34,987 nt of DNA, from NCBI GenBank assembly GCA_021300355.1, contig JAJTEF010000026.1, positions 1 through 34,987 of the forward strand, given 5' to 3'. A program made the translations under genes and the position numbers. The notes beneath the pieces are model-generated. The model ran no database searches, was not told the DNA's origin, and worked only from the letters and a program-made list of their open reading frames with translations. The stretch is from Sphingomonadaceae bacterium (GTDB taxonomy: Bacteria; Pseudomonadota; Alphaproteobacteria; Sphingomonadales; Sphingomonadaceae). Shown in pieces: positions 15,584-21,042 of the stretch (positions are counted from its first letter, which is position 1; each line of letters opens with the position of its first letter).

Positions 15584-16924
15584 ATGGCGCGCAAATATTT
15601 CGGAACGGACGGTATCAGAGGTCGCACCAATACCGGCGCCATGACACCGGAAATGGCGATGAAGGTCGGCCAGGCTGCAGGCACGCACTTCCTGCGCGGT
15701 GGGCATAAGCACCGGGTCGTCATCGGGAAAGATACGCGCTTGTCCGGCTATATGATAGAAAACGCGCTTGTGGCTGGATTTACCAGCGTGGGCATGGATG
15801 TGGTCCAGTTTGGCCCGATTCCGACCCCCGCTGTTGCACTCCTGACACGGTCCATGCGCGCAGACCTTGGCGTGATGATCTCTGCCAGCCATAATCCTTA
15901 TGAAGACAATGGCATCAAGCTGTTTGGGCCCGACGGATATAAATTATCCGATGCGGACGAACTGGCGATTGAGGCATTGCTGAGCGAGAGACTGACGCTT
16001 GCTGACGCCCCCGATATTGGCCGCGCGCGCCGTATCGAAGACAGCCGTGGACGGTATATCCATGCGGTAAAGGCGTCGGTGCCAGAACATATCCGTTTTG
16101 ATGGACTACATGTCGTGCTCGATTGCGCAAATGGTGCAGCTTATCAGGTTGCACCAACGGCCATTTGGGAACTGGGTGCGAAGGTAACCTCCATCGGGGT
16201 TGAGCCGAATGGCAAGAACATTAACGACAAGGTTGGGTCAACGCATGTTGCCACGCTTCAGGAAACCGTCGTTGCTTCAGGCGCGGATATTGGGATTGCG
16301 CTTGACGGTGATGCCGACCGGTTGATCGTTGTCGACGAACATGGCCAAGTGGTCGACGGTGACCAGATCATGGCGCTGCTTGGTTGTGCTATGCGCCGCG
16401 CGGGCAAACTTACGGGCGATGGTATCGTTGCGACCGTGATGTCCAACCTTGGGCTCGAGCGCTATTTGGAGAGCCAGCATTTAAAGCTCATCCGCGCAAA
16501 AGTCGGTGACCGCTATGTCCTCGAAGAAATGCGCAAGCACGGCATCAACGTTGGTGGCGAACAATCGGGGCATATGATCCTTTTGGATCATGCGACAACT
16601 GGCGACGGCACGATTGCTGCGCTTCAAGTATTGGCGCAGCTGGTCGAGAGCGGGAAGCCAGCCAGTGAAGTGCTGCATCTGTTCGATCCGGTGCCGCAGC
16701 TTTTGAAAAACGTCCGTTTCTCAGGCGGCAAGCCGTTGGAGGATGCGCACGTTCAGCAGGTTATAGCCGATGCTGAAGCCGAATTGGCCGGCACGGGCAG
16801 GCTCGTCATCCGCCCGTCGGGCACCGAACCCGTCATCCGCGTGATGGCGGAGGGAGATGATGCGGCGCAAGTCGAGCGCATCGTTGACGGCATCTGCGAC
16901 GCTGTGAGGGCGGCTGCGGCCTGA
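15584..16924 (+). CDS. glmM: Phosphoglucosamine mutase
   Basis: GlmM converts glucosamine-6-phosphate to glucosamine-1-phosphate on the way to UDP-GlcNAc for peptidoglycan and lipopolysaccharide. The 446-residue protein has the family length and all signatures: [15 protein letters not shown] at the N-terminus, the phosphoserine loop [17 protein letters not shown] (Ser around 102), the metal loop DGDADR, the sugar loop GGEQSGH, and the phosphate-binding [14 protein letters not shown] near the C-terminus. The ATG at 15584 has AGGAAG six bases upstream; an ATG at 15542 would add 14 non-conserved residues. Its stop overlaps the thiD start (TGATG), the first link of a glmM-thiD-rnhB run. Confidence 0.97.
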
Positions 16925-18066
16925 TGCCCCACAACACACCCGCGCGCATACTGATCATCGCTGGGTCCGACAGCGGCGGTGGCGCTGGTATTCAGGCGGA
17001 TATTAAGACGGTAACCATGCTCGGTGGGCATGCGATGACTGCGATTACCGCCATCACCGCGCAGAACACGCTGGGCGTCGATGCGGTGCATATGGTGCCA
17101 ACGCAGATGGTCATTGACCAGATCGCGGCCGTCGTGAGCGATATTGGCGTGGATGCCGTAAAAATCGGGATGATTGGAAATGCGGCCACGGCACATGCCG
17201 TTGCAGACAGCCTTTCGCAGCTGTCATGTCCCATCATATTCGACCCTGTCATGGTGGCGACCAGTGGCGCGGTGCTGGCGGATGCCGATACTATCGCTGC
17301 ATTTGAACGGCTTATGCGGCTTGCGACACTCACGACGCCCAATCTGCCTGAACTGCAGGCGCTCGGCGGAAAGGATAGCTTGCTGGGGCAGCGCATATCG
17401 TTGCTGATCAAAGGCGGGCATGCGGACGGCGACCAGATTGTGGATGAACTTTACGTCGCGCCGGGCCAAAGCGAAAGCTGGAGTGACGCGCGGATTGAAA
17501 CACGCAGTACCCACGGAACGGGTTGCACTTTGGCCACCGCGATTGCGACGGGGTTGGGGCAGGGCATGGAGTTAGTGCCAGCCATTGAACGTGCGCGCGT
17601 GTTCGTGCGCTTGGCGCTGCTGGATGCGCCGGGCCTTGGCCAAGGTCACGGGCCGATGGGGCACCAAGCCGTGCGCGAAGATGCGATGGTTGCCGGGCCC
17701 TCGCTCAATCATGTCACCGTTGGTTGCCGCAATTACGCGGCCTCTGTCGATTTTTACACAGCGCTCGGTCTTCAACAGATCGTCGACAGCCCCGACAACG
17801 GCTACGCGCGGTTTGAAATGCCCAATGGCGTTACCTTTTCGATCCACCAACATGATGATTGCGCGACATCGACCATAGTCTATTTTGAAAGCAAGCGGTT
17901 GGATGCATGGGTGACCGAACTCACCAGCCAAGGATATGTATTCGAACAGATGCCGCAGGACGAAAGCTGGGGTTGGCGCGAGGCGCGGTTGCTTGATCCC
18001 GCCGGGAATATGGTGTGTCTGTACCATGCGGGCGAGAACCGGCGATATCCCGCTTGGCGCATATGA
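16924..18066 (+). CDS. thiD: Hydroxymethylpyrimidine (phosphate) kinase fused to a C-terminal VOC/glyoxalase domain
   Basis: Residues 1-250 are ThiD, which phosphorylates HMP and HMP-P for thiamine synthesis. Visible are the substrate loop GSDSGGGAGIQADIKT (14-29), DPVMVATSG, TTPNLPEL, LIKGGH and the anion-hole motif THGTGCTLATAIA, ending with the usual GLGQGHGPMGH. The frame then continues, instead of stopping, into about 120 residues of a vicinal-oxygen-chelate domain (from residue 260: SLNHVTVGCRNYAASVDFYT, then RLLDPAGNMVCLYH), like glyoxalase/bleomycin-resistance proteins. An internal ATG at 17686 could start a separate VOC protein, but no good ribosome binding site precedes it. The stretch between PNLPEL and LIKGGH is short compared with E. 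coli ThiD. Overlaps: TGATG with glmM and ATGA with rnhB. Confidence 0.9.
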   Translation: MPHNTPARILIIAGSDSGGGAGIQADIKTVTMLGGHAMTAITAITAQNTLGVDAVHMVPTQMVIDQIAAVVSDIGVDAVKIGMIGNAATAHAVADSLSQLSCPIIFDPVMVATSGAVLADADTIAAFERLMRLATLTTPNLPELQALGGKDSLLGQRISLLIKGGHADGDQIVDELYVAPGQSESWSDARIETRSTHGTGCTLATAIATGLGQGMELVPAIERARVFVRLALLDAPGLGQGHGPMGHQAVREDAMVAGPSLNHVTVGCRNYAASVDFYTALGLQQIVDSPDNGYARFEMPNGVTFSIHQHDDCATSTIVYFESKRLDAWVTELTSQGYVFEQMPQDESWGWREARLLDPAGNMVCLYHAGENRRYPAWRI

Positions 18067-18644
18067 TTTTCGGTGTTGATGAGGCAGGGCGCGGGCCACT
18101 TGCGGGGCCAGTGGTGGCTGCCGCAGTATTGCTATGCAAACCGCGCCCGTCTGGACTGGATGACAGCAAGAAACTCAGTGCCGCGCGCCGTGCCGCGTTG
18201 GAAGAAACGATAAAGCGCCGGTGCCAGTGGGCGGTGGGCATTGTGGATGTTGATGACATCGACCGGTTGAACATATTCGGCGCGACGATGTTGGCGATGA
18301 CACGCGCGGTTGAGGGCTTGTGTGCTAAAATTGGGAGCGACCCAACCGAAGTGCTTGTCGATGGCAATATGACGCCGGCGGGACGTCGGTCCGAGTGGCG
18401 TTGGAATGCGCGGGCCATTGTGGGCGGCGATGCCCGTGAGCCCTGCATTTCTGCGGCCTCCATCATCGCGAAAGAACATCGTGACCGGATGATGTGTGAA
18501 GCAGCGCAGCAGCATCAACATTATGGTTGGGAACGGAACAAGGGGTACGGAACGCCGGACCATTTGGCCGCCTTGCGTTTGCACGGACCAACGCCGCTGC
18601 ACCGCAAAAGCTTCGCGCCCGTGTCACAAATGCTTTTGCTGTGA
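18063..18644 (+). CDS. rnhB: Ribonuclease HII
   Basis: RNase HII nicks DNA 5' of misincorporated ribonucleotides and degrades RNA in RNA-DNA hybrids. The 193-residue protein starts MIFGVDEAGRGPLAGPVVAA, with catalytic Asp6 and Glu7. The third acid lies in VDGNM (Asp100) and the fourth in VGGDAREPCISAASIIAK (Asp123), followed by HRD and YGWERNKGYGTPDH, all family hallmarks. The ATG at 18063 shares ATGA with the end of thiD, which implies translational coupling; an earlier in-frame ATG at 18015 would add 16 residues inside thiD and is less likely. The gene precedes the long promoter region of ccrM. Confidence 0.96.
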   Translation: MIFGVDEAGRGPLAGPVVAAAVLLCKPRPSGLDDSKKLSAARRAALEETIKRRCQWAVGIVDVDDIDRLNIFGATMLAMTRAVEGLCAKIGSDPTEVLVDGNMTPAGRRSEWRWNARAIVGGDAREPCISAASIIAKEHRDRMMCEAAQQHQHYGWERNKGYGTPDHLAALRLHGPTPLHRKSFAPVSQMLLL

Positions 18645-18689
18645 GTTTTTTCTAGTCAGTGGGTCATTCGGGCAACACCACTACCGGTT

Positions 18690-18823
18690 GAGTCCCGTTG
18701 GAATCGCCAGACTCCATATCTTGTGCCGGACTCCTTTCGTTCCACTTAGATGGCCCCAGATCGTGCGACTCGCGGTGAATCCTTATGTTATGAACGTCCT
18801 TGACCTTGCCTTCGCGCTGACTC
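18690..18823 (+). promoter_or_regulatory. Cluster of seven GANTC sites upstream of ccrM
   Basis: The 212-base gap between rnhB and ccrM contains GANTC at 18690, 18701, 18710, 18729, 18767, 18777 and 18819 (start positions), in all cases the recognition sequence of CcrM-type methylases. A random sequence would give about one per 256 bases. In Caulobacter the ccrM promoter itself carries GANTC sites whose methylation state shuts the gene off, so these are the likely feedback elements here. I could not identify convincing -35/-10 boxes. Confidence 0.7.
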
Positions 18824-18853
18824 ATCGCAGTTTAATTCAGTTTTGAGGAGTGA

Positions 18854-21042
<2,189 letters not shown>

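Follow-up and report, generated by a model that had tools for sequence, protein, structure and literature searches.

Studies of how alphaproteobacteria couple DNA methylation to replication have for the most part dealt with CtrA, GcrA, and proteolysis in Caulobacter. The ccrM promoter of Caulobacter crescentus is activated by CtrA and carries two GANTC sites in its leader; we know of neither NrdR boxes nor a multi-site array at this gene. Methylation most probably affects ccrM in this organism (PMC3973325; papers are cited throughout by PMC accession), and ccrM has been predicted to be a core GcrA target that was lost in Brevundimonas and its close relatives (PMC7987155). A GANTC site placed between the −35 and −10 elements is characteristic of a class of Caulobacter promoters that is activated at 40–60 minutes (PMC4287350).

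The operators of the repressor NrdR consist of two boxes that lie about three helical turns apart from centre to centre, and those with spacers of 14–17 bp are bound by four NrdRs (PMC12051234). The protein binds as a tetramer that carries ATP and dATP, and each box contains conserved G–C pairs (PMC9110341). NrdR is described as widespread in RegPrecise 3.0, in a passage that leaves its targets unnamed (PMC3840689). In Pseudomonas aeruginosa, it controls topA through a single box and by activation (PMC4409342).

We analysed a window of 34,987 nucleotides, the whole stretch of DNA under study, from a Sphingomonadaceae bacterium (GCA_021300355.1, contig JAJTEF010000026.1, positions 1 to 34,987), in which ccrM stands between rnhB and folP (Table 1). 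Its control region shares with the NrdR operators of ribonucleotide reductase operons the box sequence, the pair spacing, and a C and a G nine bases apart; it differs from them in that the target is a DNA methylase, in that most of the family has GANTC as the inner arms, and in that some 75 bp separate the predicted operator from the likely −35 element CTTGAC downstream of it, whereas NrdR boxes usually overlap the promoter. The topA gene of P. aeruginosa is, like ccrM, a DNA-processing gene other than a reductase under NrdR, there with a single box and activation as opposed to the repression proposed here. In the OxyR/GATC system, a repressor and a methylase share bases; the same logic would apply at ccrM, where the gene under control is that of the methylase itself, which would close the loop. 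As at C. crescentus ccrM, GANTC sites occupy the control region, and the site at 18819 has the same position as in GcrA-dependent and cell-cycle promoters (PMC3667746, PMC4287350), to which the window adds an upstream operator with GANTC-bearing boxes. Taken together, these features make it probable, in our judgement, that the ccrM control region combines an NrdR operator with a GcrA-type core promoter and that both are tuned by methylation. In the open-access literature, we found no paper that links NrdR to ccrM, an earlier prediction in a regulon survey being possible, and none that treats ccrM together with rnhB; in the relevant passage of a study of Acinetobacter, nrdR is named only as a neighbour of methylase genes (PMC10483419).

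Table 1. Features of the rnhB–ccrM–folP region, in coordinates of the window.
Feature	Position	Strand	Basis or remark
rnhB (ribonuclease HII)	18015..18644	+	Pfam RNase_HII 2.9e-39; upstream neighbour of the control region
Degenerate eighth site, GGGTC	18661..18665	.	Conserved GAGTC in relatives; lost in the window
Predicted NrdR box 1, CCACTACCGGTTGAGT	18678..18693	.	nrdA-derived matrix
GANTC on inner edge of box 1	18690..18694	.	Central base G in 63/63 regions with GANTC here
GANTC in spacer between boxes	18701..18705	.	Position and central base vary in relatives
GANTC on inner edge of box 2	18710..18714	.	Central base C in 69/69 regions with GANTC here
Predicted NrdR box 2, ACTCCATATCTTGTGC	18711..18726	.	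nrdA-derived matrix
GANTC downstream of box 2, conserved	18729..18733	.	Followed by TTTCGTTC at 18735-18742
GANTC, lineage-specific, variable middle	18767..18771	.	
GANTC, lineage-specific, variable middle	18777..18781	.	
CTTGAC, predicted −35 element	18799..18805	+	CTTGAC in 82/83 non-redundant regions
GANTC between predicted −35 and −10, GcrA-type position	18819..18823	.	TTGAC-N14-GANTC at 18800-18823
GAGGAG, likely ribosome-binding sequence	18845..18850	+	Read from sequence
ccrM (GANTC adenine methylase, C-terminal RAMA domain)	18857..19987	+	Pfam N6_N4_Mtase 4.2e-68, RAMA 8.4e-20
folP	19984..21042	+	Pfam Pterin_bind 2e-59; overlaps the 3' end of ccrM by 4 bases

A conserved GANTC cluster precedes ccrM

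The intergenic gap between rnhB and ccrM (18645–18856) attracted attention through seven GANTC sites within 134 bases, and a recount recovered all seven starts of the original prediction (Table 1). The chance value offered with them, about 0.5 per 134 bases, was generous, as the local density predicts about 0.16. GANTC is threefold under-represented in the window (41 occurrences versus a mean of 123 in dinucleotide shuffles), in keeping with the under-representation published for alphaproteobacteria (PMC3973325), and the other 134-base stretches of the window that start outside 18500–18900 hold no more than two sites. A search for similar clusters across 11 stretches of the source genome, together 220 kb (10% of the 2.18-Mb assembly; 1.22 GANTC per kb), reached a maximum of three sites per 134 bases.

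The excess is shared by orthologues. We obtained 110 ccrM loci, aligned 103 distinct upstream regions, and used 83 non-redundant regions for counting, the window's own among them; whole-locus comparisons were made with 59 non-redundant loci of relatives of at least 12 kb (12–21 kb each). Family names are used in the broad GTDB sense, and because related sequences are compared throughout, the counts are not independent. Each of the 110 loci has 2 to 10 GANTC in the 260 bases or fewer before ccrM. Across the 59 loci, the 220 bases before ccrM contain 27.4 GANTC per kb versus 1.22 in the rest, a 22-fold difference, and the remainder of these loci (1.18 Mb, with the sites just before ccrM excluded) reaches at most four GANTC per 134 bases, at two sites. 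A limit to this contrast is set by the ctrA promoters of Sphingomonadales, for which published counts range from one to about five GANTC per 300 bp (PMC8116508). The cluster is confirmed as real and conserved, and it stands out at the ccrM promoter as far as sampled.

Counted from the start codon, the 103 aligned regions share two conserved blocks, from −197 to −113 and from −58 to −33, with variable DNA between them. The consensus of the upstream block consists of GAGTC, ACACCAC, GTTGAGTC, a 15-base gap, GACTCAACATCTTGTG, GACTC, and TTTCGTTC. At the columns of the degenerate eighth site, G, A, G, T, and C are each found in 97 to 100 of the 103 regions. The element TTTCGTTC, downstream of the right predicted NrdR box, is also strongly conserved in relatives.

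A sequence-only profile made from the ccrM upstream block alone, R1, gave strong matches in 36 of the 37 genomes of the genus (one genome had none and one had two, each at a ccrM). Elsewhere in the source genome there was no strong match, the next place (E 0.036) lying inside a reading frame. In 24 genomes that represent other families of the order, no match was strong, the best (E 0.004) standing beside the ccrM of G055. CcrM itself was matched in 58 of 61 genomes, the source genome counted in. The full upstream block is confined to the family. R1 nearly always gave, in addition, a weaker match on the opposite strand over the core, and the core is for this reason a dyad.

The core of the cluster resembles an NrdR operator

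The half-site of the dyad, CGCAAGATATTG, was recognized as that of the NrdR box, the consensus of which we take to be aCaCwAtATaTwGtGt. Twenty nrdA promoters then supplied 21 distinct boxes for a matrix (consensus ACACAATATATTGTGG); as these boxes were picked with the box consensus just given, the matrix is independent of ccrM and dependent on that consensus. In the window, the matrix places two boxes with centres 33 bp apart and a 17-bp spacer, at a score of 24.9, and box 1 departs from the consensus in having no central A–T. This score is higher than that of every pair in the 220-kb genome sample, where the best pair, at 21.9, is that of the nrdA promoter.

The threshold was set by shuffling the family's regions letter by letter, 99% of these shuffles scoring below 10.7. 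Above it lie 81 of the 83 Sphingomonadaceae ccrM regions, window included, with spacings of 33 (57 pairs), 32 (22), and 31 bp (2). Among the 20 nrdA upstream regions, the best pair is spaced by 32 bp in 13, 33 in five, and 31 in two, in a listing that permitted these three spacings only; an open scan of spacings from 17 to 55 with the box consensus peaked at 32 for nrdA, and such scans peaked at 33 for ccrM within the family and at 32 for other ccrM regions, which agrees with the 14–17 bp spacers of published operators (PMC12051234). Open scans with the matrix gave peaks at 33 and 32 for the ccrM regions as well. The best pair of the whole 12–21 kb locus stands before ccrM in 57 of the 59 loci, the two that fail having ranks 47 and 104, and 53 of the 59 ccrM scores exceed the maximum of 15.3 found in 4741 background windows. 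A C and a G nine bases apart, in columns that we placed on the box following PMC9110341, are present in 100% and 100% of the left boxes and in 96% and 98% of the right boxes of the 56 aligned regions that also underlie R1, a conservation that is somewhat flattering because 27 of the 83 non-redundant regions (misaligned, short, or similar) had been removed by eye.

Box pairs are also found beyond the family. The outside set of 80 ccrM regions was drawn at roughly one per family from the matches listed, together with other families of the order; 40 of the 80 have a pair above threshold, mostly at a spacing of 32, and the other half have none. Leaving out seven prior R1 matches (L128, L129, L135, L156, L161, L179, L194) gives 33 of 73, and the five regions that had been chosen as R1 matches and were counted apart (L118–L122) all have a pair. 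As a control, 79 of the outside stretches (the short stretch L131 was dropped) were compared at two places: 38 have a pair above threshold within the 280 bases that precede ccrM, as against none in the 250 bases at the beginning of the stretch. R1 itself, searched against 385 genomes of the class, gave E values of 0.1 or less in 34 genomes outside the family, and the match lies directly before ccrM in at least 14 of these.

The genome encodes nrdR (TIGR00244 over cut-off). The co-occurrence of nrdR was considered as evidence and set aside as uninformative, since the gene is too common in the class (matches in 332 of 385 genomes). The original prediction had left room for GcrA or another factor at the cluster; judged from the DNA, NrdR is the most likely candidate for that second role, with dNTP sensing probably a main upstream input.

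GANTC sites form the inner edges of the predicted boxes

The inner box edges in Sphingomonadaceae read GAGTC on the left and GACTC on the right. The conserved G that NrdR needs is supplied by the first base of GAGTC, and the methylated adenine is its neighbour. Both inner edges are GANTC in 58 of the 81 paired regions, one edge in 16, and neither in seven. At each edge, the central base is fixed (Table 1), and the next site after the right box edge has a central C in 45 of 48 regions. CcrM accepts any base at this place, so the fixed central base suggests that something else reads these sites. Because the inner edges are GANTC, CcrM can methylate the putative operator that controls ccrM. The original prediction did not anticipate that, of the seven sites, two form the inner edges of the predicted NrdR boxes and a third stands in the spacer.

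It is nonetheless conceivable that the NrdR operator and the core promoter are both as proposed and that GANTC within the boxes is neutral for NrdR, being kept for CcrM or GcrA or by chance. The position at which GAGTC departs from the usual GTGT varies in nrdA boxes too, and other families do without GANTC: canonical boxes with no GANTC at all occur in several families (L196, L199, L202), from which it follows that NrdR control does not require methylated boxes. Neutrality would sit less easily with GANTC on both edges in most paired regions and with a central base that is fixed left and right, and inspection by eye of the 20 nrdA box pairs listed revealed no GANTC. We give this alternative real weight, short of considering it probable.

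The predicted core promoter resembles GcrA-type promoters

A GANTC that starts 19 bases after TTGAC (TTGAC-N14-GANTC) is found in 60 of the 83 family regions and in 40 of the 80 outside regions. The mean over offsets 6–40 in the outside regions is 3.4, peaks included, and a second, smaller peak lies at 7–10 bases. If a 17-bp spacer is assumed, the last base of the site at 18819–18823 is the first base of the −10 hexamer. A plain sigma-70 consensus scan of 18600–18900 found no promoter, either here or further upstream near the boxes. A gcrA gene is present in the genome (PF07750 over cut-off), and we predict TTGAC-N14-GANTC to be a GcrA-type core promoter.

The multi-site methylation switch of the original prediction is partly supported, by a cluster that stands out at ccrM, is conserved and phased, and has a GANTC at the GcrA-type position; it gives only part of the picture, the core taking the form of an NrdR box pair. 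A pure GcrA/CcrM switch, in which GcrA reads all sites and accounts for the dyad without NrdR, would draw on the presence of gcrA, the core GANTC between −35 and −10, the phased intervals, and the prediction of ccrM as a GcrA target (PMC7987155). We nevertheless consider it improbable, since the likeness to nrdA promoters and the spacing of 31–33 bp are left unexplained, conservation extends beyond GANTC to the outer arms CAC/GTG and the central AT, and the dyad persists in the families of L196, L199, and L202 without GANTC, the regions L196 and L199 being examples among several outside ones that have no GANTC of any kind.

The spacing of the sites bears on a further alternative. The observation that several intervals come close to one or two turns of DNA carries over to relatives: in 75 distinct site patterns, the intervals between neighbouring GANTC peak at 9–11, 18–20, 28–30, and 39–41. 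The best period is near 9.8, not 10.5, in a test that is inflated by relatedness and by the box sites. Phasing follows in part from the box geometry, and the sites of the variable middle seem to obey it as well. Intervals at multiples of about 9.8 bp are what would be expected of an array bound or shielded by some other protein, either a SeqA-like factor that recognizes hemimethylated DNA or MucR, through which some GANTC sites stay unmethylated in Caulobacter and Sinorhizobium (PMC5172544); as the two box sites are explained by NrdR box geometry, such an array is very improbable. A structured RNA, in which GAGTC and GACTC, nested and complementary on the left and right, would form hairpins in the ccrM leader or in a small RNA, can be dismissed, because in 56 of the 83 sequences arm pairing equals the expectation from independent columns, RNAalifold predicts no pair, and there are no compensatory base changes, which refutes a cis-regulatory RNA for this alignment, and because 18500–18950 has no Rfam match up to E 10. 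A coding leader (a 116-aa frame at 18496–18846 with no Pfam match) was likewise set aside.

A model for the control of ccrM

The preferred reading remains an NrdR operator joined to a GcrA-type core promoter, from which we infer NrdR binding and repression, the action of GcrA, and the direction in which methylation acts. With ATP and dATP bound, an NrdR tetramer seated on the two 16-bp boxes with their 17-bp spacer would repress ccrM at times of abundant dATP, as DNA synthesis slows. Low dATP during active replication would release NrdR and free the promoter, and the hemimethylated locus together with GcrA would then give a burst of ccrM. Full methylation of operator and promoter by the new CcrM, along with rising dATP, would turn the gene off. 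Through the GANTC sites at the box edges, CcrM would methylate its own operator, and replication, by leaving these sites hemimethylated, may alter NrdR binding.

If the model is true, a single promoter would, by way of the NrdR operator at ccrM, bring together the supply of dNTPs, replication, and the epigenetic clock, and such coupling would operate in a good part of the class. It would also constitute a rare case of a methylase able to methylate the binding site of its own repressor. A direct test becomes possible, with nrdR set against ccrM expression and the methylation state of GANTC. It is plausible that folP is coupled to ccrM, given the 4-base overlap of the two genes; in many relatives, the gap between them amounts to tens to hundreds of bases.

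An MT-A70 methylase gene with a similar control region

Nine proteins neighbouring R1 matches were scanned, of which one, an MT-A70 methylase, led on. In genome G223, which has an R1 match and no CcrM match, the profile match stands before the MT-A70 methylase gene. This gene is present in 11 of the 16 genomes of the alphaproteobacterial family of G223 (loci L244–L254), and the best NrdR pair of each of the 11 loci lies 142–160 bases before it. The pair scores above 12.9 in 10 of the 11 (9 of 10 without the seed). Four MT-A70 paralogues, at 35–37% identity, score below 7, one of these pairs still being the best in its locus. Within the 16 genomes, CcrM had no match in 12 and partial, weak matches in four; five genomes lack both the MT-A70 gene and a full CcrM. 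Upstream of the MT-A70 gene, GANTC is present in 11 of 11 loci and about six times denser than in the rest of the locus, where it occurs at 1.67 versus an expected 3.21 per kb; TTNAA is as enriched upstream as GANTC. On the simplest reading, the MT-A70 protein, which is unrelated to CcrM, would be a GANTC methylase of another family that is under the same control and may replace CcrM.

A broader scheme would have the operator read dATP/ATP through NrdR and methylation through GANTC in its boxes, such that the methylase is made only during replication, with its own locus hemimethylated; control would follow function rather than enzyme, the MT-A70 methylase having acquired the same pair and a GANTC promoter. 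We offer this scheme tentatively and consider it, taken whole, rather unlikely.

Other R1 matches and additional motifs

Weak R1 matches away from a known ccrM were examined in 20 stretches, and the majority of them are probably due to chance, 14 of the 20 lying inside a mechanically called reading frame. Among them, L236 and L237 share one repeated sequence, and L238 and L243 look like tRNA genes. In L225, a dyad and two GANTC sites lie between reading frames at 1469–1509, in a genome (G351) with no CcrM match at E 1e-100; of the neighbours, one is an acetyltransferase and the others have no Pfam match, and the dyad is unexplained.

A DnaA-box sequence (TGTGGATAA or TTATCCACA) occurs in the ccrM upstream region of 30 of the 83 family members. 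DnaA boxes lie at about −150 from ccrM (L038, L053, L058, L069, L070, L077, and others), and in several Sphingomonas a DnaA box stands just before the right NrdR box. The motif TTAACCAT, which we take to be a CtrA-type half-site, is found in 22 of 83 relatives, within the core promoter or close to it, and is absent from the window; these half-sites lie at about −55 and −98 from ccrM (L018, L020, L023, L025, and others). Elsewhere in the window, the open reading frame at 16924–18066 unites a phosphomethylpyrimidine kinase domain and a C-terminal glyoxalase-type domain in a single frame.
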